Assembly (NCBI GenBank): GCA_003650925.1
Contig: QMSP01000014.1
Span: 1 to 44,813, forward strand
DNA from: Thermoprotei archaeon
Lineage (GTDB): Archaea > Thermoproteota > Thermoprotei > QMSL01
Length of the DNA stretch: 44,813 nt
Reading direction: 5' to 3'
Shown here: positions 12,833-44,599 of the stretch, piece after piece
Position numbering within the stretch: position 1 is the stretch's first letter
Layout of the letters: each line of letters starts with the position of its first letter
The notes under the pieces: model-generated
Database searches by the model: none
The model's input: only the letters and a program-made list of their open reading frames with translations
What the model was told of the DNA's origin: nothing
Program-made: the position numbers and the translations under genes

Positions 12833-14101
12833 CTAATGTAGTGTTGAAGCGTGGGAGCAAGCTATCCTAAATCCCTTAGGGTTCACCTCTTTATATGTTT
12901 TTAATGATGGATGTATATAGACGATCATAGGTTCATCTCTTAGCCCACCCTTCGCTCGGGTTTCATTGGTCATTGGGTGGGTGCCCCACGACCCAAGGCA
13001 TGGGGCAATTGTTTGAATTGCTCTGAGGTATATGTTCATAGCACCTACAACGTCTCTATCAGCTATGAATCTGCACTTACTACATATAGCTAGCCTGTGG
13101 GTGTAGGTCAATCTTGCTCCACACTTTGGACATGTAGATGATGTATTTTTCGGGTTTACGAAAACTATGGGTACGTTGTACTCAATAGCCTTAGTTATTA
13201 TTGCTAGCTGTAGCTTTCTATAGCCAAATCTCGATAACTTGTTCGCTAAACTGGAAGATTTCTGAGATGCATTGTACCACAACTTCTCTAAATCCTCAAG
13301 AACAATAGCACTTCTTGTCCTCTTAGCTCTTAACACTATGTACTTAGCGAACTTCCTACACCAATCAACTACAATGTTCCTACTCCTCCTATGTAGTGTT
13401 CTAATGATTTCAAGCCACTTCTCATCTCTTCTCCAAGCATAGCTATGCCTCTTTTGAACACCTTCAGCCAGCCTCTTAAGGTGTAGACCCTCAGTAAACC
13501 TAGTGTCTATCCTTCTAACTCTTCTACCATCGTAAACAACTACTTTCTTCAAGTTAATGTCGAGAGAAATCACATTTCTTGGCTTATATGGGTCATAATC
13601 CCATCTGAAAGGTATTGACACCCATATCTTACCCTGTCTATCTATGCTTATTATTACCTCGTACCACTTCCTACCAATGAACTTCCTGATGTAGTTCCTA
13701 CGATGTAGCAGCTTTATCTTGAACACTCTGTTCCTAAGCTTTATTATAACCACTTGGCTCTCAAGGTCTACACTAGCATCGTACTTATCTAATCTAGCTG
13801 ATAACTTCTTCAACTCAAGCTTCTTACCGCCGTTAACTTTAGCTGACTTAACAAGTGATAGAGCGTACTTGTATATCTGCTTGGCTTGATGTGCTCTAAA
13901 ACTCTGCTCCCTCAATACTTTGTAGAACATTTGATGAGCTTGGTTGGGCGTTGGTAACTTGTCTAACTCACACAAAGCATCTACAACATACTGCATAGCT
14001 CTACGTGTAAGATAAAGCTCCTCCCGTAGCTCTTCAGTAGAACCCTCTACTAGAAGACCTTGAGCTTTTAGAGTCAGCGTATACGCTCCTCGGGGAACCA
14101 T
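12833..14101 (-). CDS. tnpB: TnpB RNA-guided endonuclease (IS200/IS605-type OrfB)
   Basis: The RuvC-like catalytic residues are all present, numbered from an upstream in-frame start at 14140: Asp194 (VISLDINLKK), Glu282 (AIVLEDLEKLW) and Asp361 (FIADRDVVGAMNI). The zinc finger is CPKC at 337-340 with CSKC at 353-356. TnpB uses an omega-RNA from its own 3' end to cut DNA and helps retain the transposon. The start is placed at ATG 14101 (MVPRGAYTLTLKAQ), which fits the family better than the upstream TTG. The last 50 residues, after GSWGTHPMTNETRAKGG, are unusual and probably overlap the omega-RNA scaffold. No TnpA transposase is nearby, so the element is non-autonomous. Confidence 0.9.
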   Translation of the reverse strand: MVPRGAYTLTLKAQGLLVEGSTEELREELYLTRRAMQYVVDALCELDKLPTPNQAHQMFYKVLREQSFRAHQAKQIYKYALSLVKSAKVNGGKKLELKKLSARLDKYDASVDLESQVVIIKLRNRVFKIKLLHRRNYIRKFIGRKWYEVIISIDRQGKIWVSIPFRWDYDPYKPRNVISLDINLKKVVVYDGRRVRRIDTRFTEGLHLKRLAEGVQKRHSYAWRRDEKWLEIIRTLHRRSRNIVVDWCRKFAKYIVLRAKRTRSAIVLEDLEKLWYNASQKSSSLANKLSRFGYRKLQLAIITKAIEYNVPIVFVNPKNTSSTCPKCGARLTYTHRLAICSKCRFIADRDVVGAMNIYLRAIQTIAPCLGSWGTHPMTNETRAKGGLRDEPMIVYIHPSLKTYKEVNPKGFRIACSHASTLH

Positions 14102-14200
14102 CCTAGTTAGGGTGGTGCACCCCCTCATCGGAGGCACCAATTAATGCTTTGCATGCGAGTTTATAAGCTTTTACATGCATATTTAGTCTTGGGATACATT

Positions 14201-33919: not shown

Positions 33920-34336
33920 TCATTCAACCCAATATTCAGCTTCCTCACTTCTCCTTAGCTTCTCCTCATCAATGAATCTCCACAGACCAGACCTAGGCTT
34001 GACAACATCAATGCCTAACTCCTCTATGATAGCATCACCTAGCAAGACCTCTGGCTCACCAGGTACAGAGACAGCTCTAGCCCTTACCCATTCGCTTTCT
34101 CTATCCTCAGTGATGACTTTGACCTCTACATAACCTAAGACATAGGTGGTGGTCTCAGAGCCAACTACACGATAGCGTTCTGCTCTTAGACGCTCAAGAG
34201 GAAGACCTAGCCTTCGGGCAAGGGCGAGAGGCAGATGTATCTCTGGTATTTCACTCTCATAGCCACTATTCACAAGAGCTACGGTTGTGATGTTATTCTC
34301 CTTGTATCGAATGCTAACTCTTACCCTTACACCCAA
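33920..34336 (-). CDS. Retropepsin-like (clan AA) protein with Asn in place of Asp, second copy
   Basis: This paralogue of 7617-8036 has ALVNSGYESEIPEIHLPLAL, a central VKVITEDRESEWVRARAV and the fold's closing EVLLGDAIIEELGIDVVKPR then GLWRF. The active-site turn is again V-N-S-G, with Asn coded AAT instead of AAC. Sharing Asn by different codons points to selection for it. The TTG start at 34336 has GGTGAAGG upstream. A short basic frame overlaps the start as in the first copy. A binding or regulatory role rather than proteolysis is the simplest reading; nothing shows the ligand. Confidence 0.6.
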   Translation of the reverse strand: MGVRVRVSIRYKENNITTVALVNSGYESEIPEIHLPLALARRLGLPLERLRAERYRVVGSETTTYVLGYVEVKVITEDRESEWVRARAVSVPGEPEVLLGDAIIEELGIDVVKPRSGLWRFIDEEKLRRSEEAEYWVE

Positions 34337-34427: not shown

Positions 34428-34534
34428 GATGATGATCTACCTTGCTTCAATATATTCGTATCCTCTTCAAGGTTTAGCATTGAGAGAGCCTTAGCTTTCT
34501 CAGGTAGCTCTTCACTGTGGTCTTCATAATTCAA

Positions 34535-34597
34535 TGGCTCAGGGCGCGAAACCATCATCATATGTCAGTGGCTGCAGCCCACTCTTCATCGCCATAC
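34535..34597 (-). ncRNA. C/D box guide sRNA D, predicted to modify 16S rRNA
   Basis: Minus strand order: C box variant CGATGA (34586-34591), a long 17-nt guide ending GGGCTGCAGCCA, D' CTGA (34565-34568), 4-nt spacer, C' TGATGA (34555-34560), 12-nt guide TGGTTTCGCGCC, D CTGA (34539-34542). The D guide is complementary to GGCGCGAAACC, the conserved archaeal 16S rRNA stretch covered by the ARC344 probe site and just beyond it. By the fifth-base rule it should methylate the C of GGCGC, near E. coli position 361. GCTTATATCC on the minus strand at about 34616-34625 is a promoter 26 bases upstream. Confidence 0.85.
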
Positions 34598-34723
34598 ATC
34601 AACTTCTCACTTGAGGATATAAGCTTGTCTAGATAGGCTTCATTCATCAAAGGACAACATGTTCAGTCTCAAAATAGAGCTAGAATTATATTCAGTTACT
34701 AGCACAGATATTACTGGGGGAAT

Positions 34724-35323
34724 ATGCCTGAGACCATTAGGACTAGAGTAGTCAGAGCTGCTGGCTTTGCTGATGTCCTTAGAAGAGCTGCTTTTGCTGT
34801 ATTTGGAAAGAAAGTTCCCTCTCAAGTTATAGTAAGGGATGTGGGGCAACTTAACAAGAAGATCTTTGAAGAGCTTGTCAATAGGGGGGTCAAGAAGGAG
34901 GATTATATTAGGATAACTGTTGAAGGAGAATATGATGAAGAGAAGCAAGAGATTAGGTGGAGTAATCTAGTTATTGAGAGGTTCATACCTGAGACTTCAC
35001 TAAAAGATCTAGAGGAGAAGCTGAAGCAGCTGGAGGAGGAGAATAAGAAGCTAAGAGAGGAGATTGATAGTCTAAGGAGGAAGTATAGTGAAGAGGCTCT
35101 TAGAGAGGTAGAAGAGCTAAGGAGAAGTCTTGAGGAGGCAAGGAGAGAGGCTGAGGAAAAGGGCAGAGAGGTTGCAAGACTGAGAGAGGAGCTAGATAAG
35201 GCTAGAGGAGAGCTTGATAAGGTAAAGGCTAGAGTCAAGGAGCTGGAGGAGGAGAATAGTAGACTAAGAGGCTCACTTAGGGCTGTTATGGAGCTAGCTT
35301 CTAAGGCCTTGGCCAAGCGCTAG
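34724..35323 (+). CDS. DUF2258-like domain with long C-terminal coiled coil
   Basis: Residues 1 to about 90 are a compact domain (VVRAAGFADVLRRAAFAVFG; ITVEGEYDEEKQEIRWSNLV) resembling DUF2258 of Thermoproteota. Residues about 92-190 form an unbroken heptad-rich coiled coil of Glu, Lys, Arg and Leu (LEEKLKQLEEENKKLREEID). This shape suits a dimer or a scaffold protein. GGGGGA at 34716-34721 is the ribosome-binding site, and AATTATATT near 34683-34691 is the TATA box. The end overlaps the convergent eL33 gene by 4 bases. Function not established. Confidence 0.6.
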   Translation: MPETIRTRVVRAAGFADVLRRAAFAVFGKKVPSQVIVRDVGQLNKKIFEELVNRGVKKEDYIRITVEGEYDEEKQEIRWSNLVIERFIPETSLKDLEEKLKQLEEENKKLREEIDSLRRKYSEEALREVEELRRSLEEARREAEEKGREVARLREELDKARGELDKVKARVKELEEENSRLRGSLRAVMELASKALAKR

Positions 35324-42045: not shown

Positions 42046-42679
42046 ACTCAGCTATACTCCTAACACGGCCTGACCTTATAGCCTCAACTTCATCCTCCTC
42101 TATGCCGTGCTTTAGGTACTCCACTAGCTCCTTGGAGATCAAAGGCCTTCCATTGATTAAGGGATAGGCATAGGGCAGCTCTATGGTGAGGAATTCATTA
42201 ACCTTTATCTCAAGGCCTATCCTTATGGGTATCTCCTCCACTTCATAGCCATGCATCACCATGTGCGCCATGTACACAGCCCCATCAACGGAGAACTGAT
42301 GAGGGCCGAGGTTTCTAGCTATGCATCCTGGAAGTCTTGATGTTAAGAGAGTCCACGTTCTTCCCCTAGGAGGATGATCGCCCATTATTCCTCCTATGAC
42401 TACATACTTCACCTCTTTGAAGTCATCTGGCCTTAGAAGTGTTGGAGCCTTGGGATCAAGTATGAGCATTTTATCGGCTGGCAGACCTACTTTAAGTATG
42501 CTCATCTTGGAGACCATAGCTATTTTTCTAAGGATGGCTCTTTCTCTAGGATCCTTAACATTGCTTATAAGAAGCCTTTCTCTGCCAATGATCCTTGATG
42601 AGCTGAGGTATTCATACCACACCCACCTACTGACGACGGGCTCCAAGTGTTCTATGACGAATATCACCTCACTCGACAT
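42026..42679 (-). CDS. SPOUT-fold methyltransferase of the Sfm1/DUF431 type
   Basis: The opening FVIEHLEPVVSRWVWYEYLS is highly characteristic of Sfm1-like proteins. GGIMGDHPPRGRTWTLLTSR and NLGPHQFSVDGAVYMAHMVM provide the knotted SAM-binding region. Yeast Sfm1 methylates an arginine of ribosomal protein uS3; the archaeal homologue is predicted to act on protein or RNA. Length (217) is normal. It overlaps the 3' end of the radA gene upstream by 11 bases and so belongs to its operon. Confidence 0.8.
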   Translation of the reverse strand: MSSEVIFVIEHLEPVVSRWVWYEYLSSSRIIGRERLLISNVKDPRERAILRKIAMVSKMSILKVGLPADKMLILDPKAPTLLRPDDFKEVKYVVIGGIMGDHPPRGRTWTLLTSRLPGCIARNLGPHQFSVDGAVYMAHMVMHGYEVEEIPIRIGLEIKVNEFLTIELPYAYPLINGRPLISKELVEYLKHGIEEDEVEAIRSGRVRSIAEFMEEPG

Positions 42680-43607
42680 CTACTATACCCCCGTCTAGTA
42701 TTCTGAAGGTAGCCTTGCCTTCAGGAAGTACCACGCTGTGCACTATCCTAGCCTCTCTACGATCACCTTTTTCCTTGAGCAGAAGTATTCTTATATCAAC
42801 TGCTTGTGGCAATATCAAGCCGCCTACGGGCACTAGCTCTCCTGTCTTCATGTTCACAGTGACCTGATTGGTTATGACCACTGAGGCCCCCCCTTCAGCT
42901 AGTGATCGAGCCTCCATCAAGAGCCTGGCTAGAGCCTCTTGTCTTCTTATGAGATCCCCTCCGAACTCCTCCCTTACGAGCCCTGATAAGGAGTCAAGTA
43001 CAACAAGTCTAATACCCTTCTCCAAGAACTTCCTAGACCTTACAAGTGCTGAATACTGCTCAGCAAAGGAGAGAACCCTTGCATATAATATTCTTCGAAG
43101 CACAGACCTCCCATCTAGTTTGAACCTCTTAGCTATTCTGATTATACGCTCAGGCCTGAAGGTTCCATCAGCATCTATGAACACTGCTCCGCTTTCTAAA
43201 CCACCCTCACTTTGAGGAAGCTGAACAGTTACACAGAGCTGATGACATAGCTGGGTTTTGCCGCTTCCAAAAGGCCCTGCTAGCTCTACTAAGTGATGGG
43301 TGGGGATGCCTCCACCTAGTAAGTTATCAAGCGCATGAGAACCTGTGGTGAAGATATCAAATCTCATTCTATTCCTCTCCAAGTACTCCAAGAGGTCCAT
43401 TAACTCAAGGCCAATCATCTCCCTAGCTCGTTTGATGAGGCCTTCTGCAGTTGGCTCATCAATTCCAAGCGCTTCCGCTAGACGGCGAGAGCTCATGAAG
43501 GCTAGGGATTCAAGGCTTCTTATGTTGGCTCTGCTAAGCTTGCGTAAGGCCTCTTCACCTAGGCCTATCTCTCTAAGCAATCTAGCGAGAGCACTCAATG
43601 AGAGCAC
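42669..43607 (-). CDS. radA: RadA-family recombinase (possibly a paralogue)
   Basis: The N-terminal helix-hairpin-helix domain (1 to about 65) precedes a RecA-fold core. That core has Walker A GPFGSGKTQL (111-120), LCVTVQLPQSEGGLESG, FRPERI and Walker B LVVLDS (201-206). Archaeal RadA makes strand-exchange filaments on ssDNA. Several conserved RadA positions differ. It has FIDADGTF instead of WIDTENTF, a shortened linker before the core, and NQVTVNMKTGELVPVGGLIL where RadA has a longer L2 loop with DPTRPVGG. It may be a divergent RadA or a RadA paralogue. GTG start. It is co-transcribed with the SPOUT gene. Confidence 0.8.
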   Translation of the reverse strand: MLSLSALARLLREIGLGEEALRKLSRANIRSLESLAFMSSRRLAEALGIDEPTAEGLIKRAREMIGLELMDLLEYLERNRMRFDIFTTGSHALDNLLGGGIPTHHLVELAGPFGSGKTQLCHQLCVTVQLPQSEGGLESGAVFIDADGTFRPERIIRIAKRFKLDGRSVLRRILYARVLSFAEQYSALVRSRKFLEKGIRLVVLDSLSGLVREEFGGDLIRRQEALARLLMEARSLAEGGASVVITNQVTVNMKTGELVPVGGLILPQAVDIRILLLKEKGDRREARIVHSVVLPEGKATFRILDGGIVDVE

Positions 43608-43978: not shown

Positions 43979-44599
43979 ATGGAGAAGTTGTATAAGCTTA
44001 GTGAGTTTGCTAAGCTGGTTGGTGTTAGCCGCAGCGGTGTTGTTAAGTGGATTAGAGAGGGCAGAATTAGAGCTATTAATATTCATGGCAGGTGGTATAT
44101 TCCAGAATCAGAGCTTGAGAGATTAACAAGGGGGTTCTACGTTGGTTTTAAGAGAATCGCTATCTATGCTAGAGTTAGCGGTAGCGCACAGAAGGATGAC
44201 CTAGAGAGACAGATATCCTCACTAGAAGACTATGCTAGAAAACATTTCCCACAAGCAGAGTACATAGTTATCAAGGACATTGCAAGTGGTCTCAAAGAGG
44301 ATAGGAGAGGACTAAGGAAACTAATAGAGATGGCTAGGAAGAGGCAAATAGATGCTATAGTGGTAGCTTACAAGGATAGATTAACAAGATTCGGGTTCAC
44401 TTACCTTAGAGAACTCTTTGAAGCATACGGTGTAAGAGTAATAGTAGCTTTTCAAGAAGAGCCTAAAGACTATTATCAAGAGTTGGTTGAGGATTTGATA
44501 GCAATTGTTACTAGCTTTGCTGGTAGAATCTATGGTAAGCGTAGCCATAAGTATAAGAAGGTGGTGGAAGCAGTTGAACAAGCGGTTAAAGACCCTTAA
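43979..44599 (+). CDS. IS607 serine recombinase (TnpA)
   Basis: Residues 1-52 are a MerR-type helix-turn-helix (YKLSEFAKLVGVSRSGVVKW; GRWYIPESELERL). The serine resolvase core follows with IAIYARVSGSAQKDDLERQI, where Ser68 is the nucleophile, then IVVAYKDRLTRFGFTYLREL. It cuts and rejoins DNA through phosphoserine links and inserts with little target preference. Length (206) is complete. The tnpB frame begins 26 bases before its stop. Confidence 0.93.
   Translation: MEKLYKLSEFAKLVGVSRSGVVKWIREGRIRAINIHGRWYIPESELERLTRGFYVGFKRIAIYARVSGSAQKDDLERQISSLEDYARKHFPQAEYIVIKDIASGLKEDRRGLRKLIEMARKRQIDAIVVAYKDRLTRFGFTYLRELFEAYGVRVIVAFQEEPKDYYQELVEDLIAIVTSFAGRIYGKRSHKYKKVVEAVEQAVKDP

Follow-up and report, generated by a model that had tools for sequence, protein, structure and literature searches.

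A probable double-guide C/D-box sRNA gene in a Thermoprotei archaeon, predicted to direct 2′-O-methylation of 16S rRNA

Archaeal C/D-box sRNAs (Dennis et al. 2015, PMC4644070; review PMC7994747) are RNAs of ~50–70 nt in which four boxes, in the order C-D′-C′-D, accompany two guides; D guides of 12 nt, the D-minus-5 rule and targets in rRNA, with two of them linked in one rRNA, belong to the described features of the class. Methylations of this kind are usually proposed to serve local rRNA folding or stability (PMC4644070, PMC7994747). We here describe a locus that shares these features, found in a window of 44,813 nt (the whole stretch of DNA that was analysed) from a Thermoprotei archaeon (GCA_003650925.1, contig QMSP01000014.1). 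Its minus strand holds, at 34595-34534, a complete double-guide C/D-box motif of 62 nt that reads AUGGC G AUGAAGA GUGGGCUGCAGCCA CUGA CAU AUGAUGA UGGUUUCGCGCC CUGA GCCAU (Table 1). The D, D′ and C′ boxes are of consensus sequence and the C box, AUGAAGA, is one change away from RUGAUGA; in this, the preferred register, the guides measure 12 nt (D) and 14 nt (D′). The C′ box ATGATGA, the 12-nt guide TGGTTTCGCGCC and the D box CTGA lie exactly where a first-pass annotation of the window had placed them, and the D′ box is as described there. Judging from the sequence, the locus is very probably the gene for an archaeal C/D-box sRNA of ~55–65 nt with two guides, which would direct 16S rRNA methylation, the second target being less certain.

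Table 1. Features of the predicted sRNA gene, and C/D sRNAs elsewhere that carry the same 16S guide
Feature	Position in window or locus	Strand	Remarks
Terminal stem, 5′ strand, AUGGC	34591..34595	-	pairs with GCCAU (34538-34534); appears in predicted fold
C box AUGAAGA (preferred register)	34583..34589	-	Rfam sR1 alignment agrees; first-pass GCGAUGA at 34592-34586
D′ guide GUGGGCUGCAGCCA, 14 nt	34569..34582	-	13 consecutive pairs (2 G-U) to same-order 16S GGGCUGCGGCCCAU
D′ box CUGA	34565..34568	-	from sequence
C′ box AUGAUGA, 3 nt (CAU) past D′	34555..34561	-	from sequence
D guide UGGUUUCGCGCC, 12 nt	34543..34554	-	complementary to 16S GGCGCGAAACC; methylation predicted at C361 (E. coli numbering)
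D box CUGA	34539..34542	-	from sequence
Terminal stem, 3′ strand, GCCAU	34534..34538	-	pairs with AUGGC
TATA-like element CTTATATCC	34615..34623	-	~26-30 nt upstream; putative promoter
361-guide C/D sRNAs, genus g28 (family f7), five species	L141, L142, L144, L145, L147		
361-guide C/D sRNA, Desulfurococcales archaeon AUK150	L140		ATGAAGA as both C and C′
361-guide C/D sRNA, Thermoproteota L_MaxBin.041	L148		
361-guide C/D sRNAs, family f29, three genomes	L136-L138		C′ box non-standard, less certain
361-guide candidate, Thermofilaceae SKYB99/G032	L128/L146		weaker architecture

Where does the C box begin? The first-pass annotation had read GCGAUGA and regarded both this box and the resulting 17-nt D′ guide as unusual. 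Both are present in that register; a better one, AUGAAGA, begins 3 nt further downstream and gives a D′ interval of 14 nt, so that the unusual appearance is a consequence of the register chosen. With AUGAAGA, the segments AUGGC and GCCAU also give a terminal stem of 5 bp directly adjoining the D box; precisely three nucleotides (G, A, U) separate this stem from the GA pairs, and a 3-nt bulge at this place is the usual geometry of the box C/D kink-turn. The single deviation from consensus lies opposite the U of CUGA, a position that is variable among C′ boxes too, and the alignment to Rfam sR1 chose the same register. This genome has 51 distinct candidates whose C′ box follows the consensus; their C box reads RTGATGA in 32, ATGAAGA in seven, ATGAGGA in three and GCGATGA in three, with D′ following at 9–14 nt after ATGAAGA and at 14–16 nt after GCGATGA; in neither register is the C box unusual for this genome. 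One further candidate sRNA (L169; contig C16, 8712-8746) reads ATGAAGA, 14 nt, CTGA CAT ATGATGA and lacks a preceding GCG; its C box, interval and D′-CAT-C′ core are those of the window sRNA, but its guides are different and its D box is degenerate (CGGA). Because of the 14-nt interval, the stem and bulge geometry, the single change at a variable position, the sR1 register, the genome counts and L169, AUGAAGA is the preferred, if unproven, register and probably the C box.

In whichever register, a C box off consensus might also betray boxes that came together by chance, or a C/D sRNA gene in decay. We deem this very improbable: the pattern controls give just 0–1 matches per genome, guide and terminal stem are intact with a TATA-like element at the expected distance, and the same guide occurs in other lineages. 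The assembly of this organism (G000, 2.14 Mb, 98.6% complete) served as search genome, in which the strict C-D′-C′ pattern (RTGATGA-N9-14-CTGA-N2-6-RTGANGA) has 35 matches versus 0 for the reversed pattern used as control, and a relaxed C-box pattern that includes this locus has 57 raw matches versus 1. Together, this suggests about 50 such sRNA genes in the genome, of which this locus is one, and all of which escape ORF finding during annotation. As a population, the candidate guides point to rRNA, with 41% of them reaching a score of at least 10 against the rRNA of relatives versus 5% of shuffled guides. The protein partners are encoded as well, genes for Nop5 (PF01798, E 1.2e-74) and fibrillarin (PF01269, E 4.1e-105) lying adjacent on contig C16. 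Rfam models of archaeal C/D sRNAs match the locus at E ~1e-5, with 26–29 bits versus curated cut-offs of 36–45 bits; the sR1 model (RF01152) aligns to 34593-34537 of the minus strand with 29.2 bits (E 9.9e-6), short of its 45-bit cut-off. The energy fold, uninformative for k-turn guide RNAs, is no more stable than that of shuffles (z 0.08).

Two other canonical C/D sRNAs lie on the minus strand of the window: GTGATGA AGCCGTCCCTCAG CTGA TAT GTGATGA ACCAGCTGAGTA CTGA at 17026-16977 and GTGATGA GAACGGCTGCAA CTGA CAA GTGATGA ATCCTGAGGTCA CTGA at 24895-24847. At curated Rfam cut-offs, none of the window's three sRNAs is called. The window also contains genes for a TnpB-family RNA-guided endonuclease (12833-14140, minus strand), an IS607-family transposase (43979-44599, plus strand) and a RadA/Rad51-like recombinase of 312 aa (42669-43607, minus strand), the last scoring just below the RadA cut-offs and perhaps a RadA paralogue.

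The gene is intergenic, as had been proposed, with the nearest ORFs at 33920-34336 (minus strand) and 34724-35323 (plus strand), and the TATA box ascribed to it was recovered as the TATA-like CTTATATCC. Throughout the genome, TATA-like motifs are enriched at −45 to −20 from C boxes (18 of 48 stretches, some of which overlap; shuffles, mean 6.4, maximum 13). A scan for bacterial promoters and terminators found nothing, and the neighbouring coiled-coil protein, used as query, returned no named relatives. With the minus-strand ORF ~200 nt downstream, the boxes might instead form a kink-turn in the leader of its mRNA, which L7Ae would bind to control translation, and guide nothing; regulation of archaeal mRNAs by L7Ae is reported (PMC5539422). 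However, such a kink-turn has no need of two complete box pairs, guide-length spacers and rRNA targets, and L169 shows the same box architecture at another place in the genome, combined with different guides, which makes a leader element hardly credible.

What would the guide RNA methylate? Since both the 16S and the 23S gene are absent from the organism's own assembly, the rRNA of relatives was used for the target search. The 16S of a same-order genome (G002) carries CAGCAGGCGCGAAACCTCCGC at the target site, and against its GGCGCGAAACC the 11 D-proximal nucleotides of the D guide form 11 of 11 consecutive Watson-Crick pairs from the D box on, the twelfth position (U-U) being unpaired. This bears out the 16S complementarity noted by the first-pass annotation, which had expected a methylated cytidine near E. 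coli position 361: by the D-minus-5 rule, the site lies across from the guide's fifth base before D, which is a C in the 16S and aligns to 361. These pairings predict 2′-O-methylation of 16S C361. We found no mention of 16S C361 in the main text of PMC4644070 or PMC7994747.

For the D′ guide, where the first-pass annotation had named no target, the best match among the 16S and 23S of relatives is GGGCUGCGGCCCAU in same-order 16S (E. coli 231-244). Thirteen consecutive pairs, two of them G-U, start at the second nucleotide before D′, the first D′-adjacent base being mismatched, and the predicted site, 126 nt away from that of the D guide, is the U that corresponds to E. coli 235. The scores of the D-guide and the D′-guide match are each equalled by 8 of 300 shuffled guides (~15 kb of partly redundant rRNA from relatives), so neither match is decisive alone, and the weight of the target evidence lies in their combination and in conservation. 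Alternatively, the sRNA may be real and serve C361 through its D guide alone, with an orphan D′ guide that matches 16S simply through its self-complementary GGCUGCAGCC core. The mismatched first base, the two G-U pairs required and the equally good shuffles would be in line with this, as would the 28% of Pyrobaculum guides reported to be orphans (PMC7994747). Yet, of all 15 kb of proxy rRNA, the stretch that matches best is in same-order 16S, 126 nt from the D target, and linked sites are often targeted by both guides of one sRNA (PMC7994747); we consider an orphan D′ guide unlikely, if a serious contender. We favour a reading with two guides, the D′ guide having a less certain candidate target near 16S position 235.

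Is the 361 guide found in other archaea? An orthologue of the whole sRNA was sought in three same-order genomes and none was found. Across 398 genomes of the phylum, the guide with its adjoining D box was matched 16 times when up to one mismatch was tolerated, versus 3 times for the reversed control. The shared guide reads GKUUUCGCGCC directly before CUGA and targets the same 16S nucleotide (Table 1); guide-string matches without C/D architecture (L014–L017, L019, L020, L022, L023, L029–L033, L035–L037, L124, L125, L134, L135, and L143 from a KSB1 bacterium) were left out, as was L129 with its degenerate D box. The genome's own 16S carries the 361 site in G257 and G272 of family f29 and in G032. 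The partner guide in f29, UUACGGUUGCCCU, has a complement in the f29 16S as well, ~20 nt downstream. In all three f29 loci the C/D sRNA is long, additional sequence, with a hairpin in at least one, lying between the D′ and C′ regions. In genus g28, the D′ side, instead of the D side, carries the 361 guide, whose partner fits 23S. The g28 guides read GUUUUCGCGCC and a sister genus of the same family has GGCGCGAAAACU at that place in its 16S, a matched guide/target change that rests on the sister-genus 16S, as that of g28 is missing from its assemblies; where the related genus's rRNA reads GGCGCGAAAAC, the guide bears the corresponding change. The partner guide is different in each lineage that carries the 361 guide, which fits the earlier suggestion of fluid guide modules (PMC4644070). 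In family f3 (site GGCGCGAAUAC) and genus g5 of family f4 (site GGGGCGAAACU), the sites are altered and no guide was found, making the target patchy. In the 16S of genome G055 (L067), the 361 site is altered to GGCTCGAATAC and an insertion of ~40–50 nt follows shortly downstream, behind CTCCGCAA. We tentatively suggest, with somewhat less than even confidence, that the 16S-361 guide and its flanking boxes form a recurrent module, placed on either side, with varied partners, in unrelated or reshuffled sRNAs, and tracking changes in 16S. If true, methylation at this single 16S nucleotide would have been captured repeatedly or have evolved convergently.

A guide for C361 best explains the locus, given its architecture, the machinery genes, the many similar genes, the perfect 11-bp target in the same order and the recurrence across lineages. 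Transcription would start from the gene's own TATA box, and maturation would yield an sRNA of ~60 nt. Tandem G-A pairs, stem I and the 3-nt bulge of a kink-turn can all be drawn from the sequence, with AUGAAGA/CUGA set on the AUGGC/GCCAU stem, and C′/D′ would form a kink-loop; L7Ae binding is a prediction, and the two elements would be expected to assemble an RNP with L7Ae, Nop5 and fibrillarin. Paired to GGCGCGAAACC, the D guide would let fibrillarin methylate the 2′-OH of C361, while the D′ guide, paired to GGGCUGCGGCCCAU ~126 nt upstream, would probably direct methylation of the U at 235. This amounts to a specific prediction of 16S C361 methylation for an archaeon known here from a fragmented assembly alone, and to one 16S site targeted in several archaeal lineages by guides with different partners.

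How does the window sRNA relate to its nearest described counterparts? It differs from the archaeal C/D-box sRNAs of PMC4644070 and PMC7994747 in its C box, which departs from RUGAUGA (AUGAAGA, or GCGAUGA in the other register), and in its D′ interval of 14 (or 17) nt. It aligns over its full length, on the minus strand, to Rfam sR1 (RF01152), sR3 (RF01133), sR17 (RF01144) and snoPyro_CD (RF00095) and is an RNA of the same class; its guides, however, differ from theirs and its scores stay under the curated cut-offs, which places it outside these target-defined families. With the sRNAs of g28, AUK150, L_MaxBin.041 and f29, it shares the same guide before CUGA and the same 16S nucleotide, whereas that guide lies on the D′ side in g28 and the C′ box is non-standard in f29. 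The window sRNA is a new example of a thoroughly known class.
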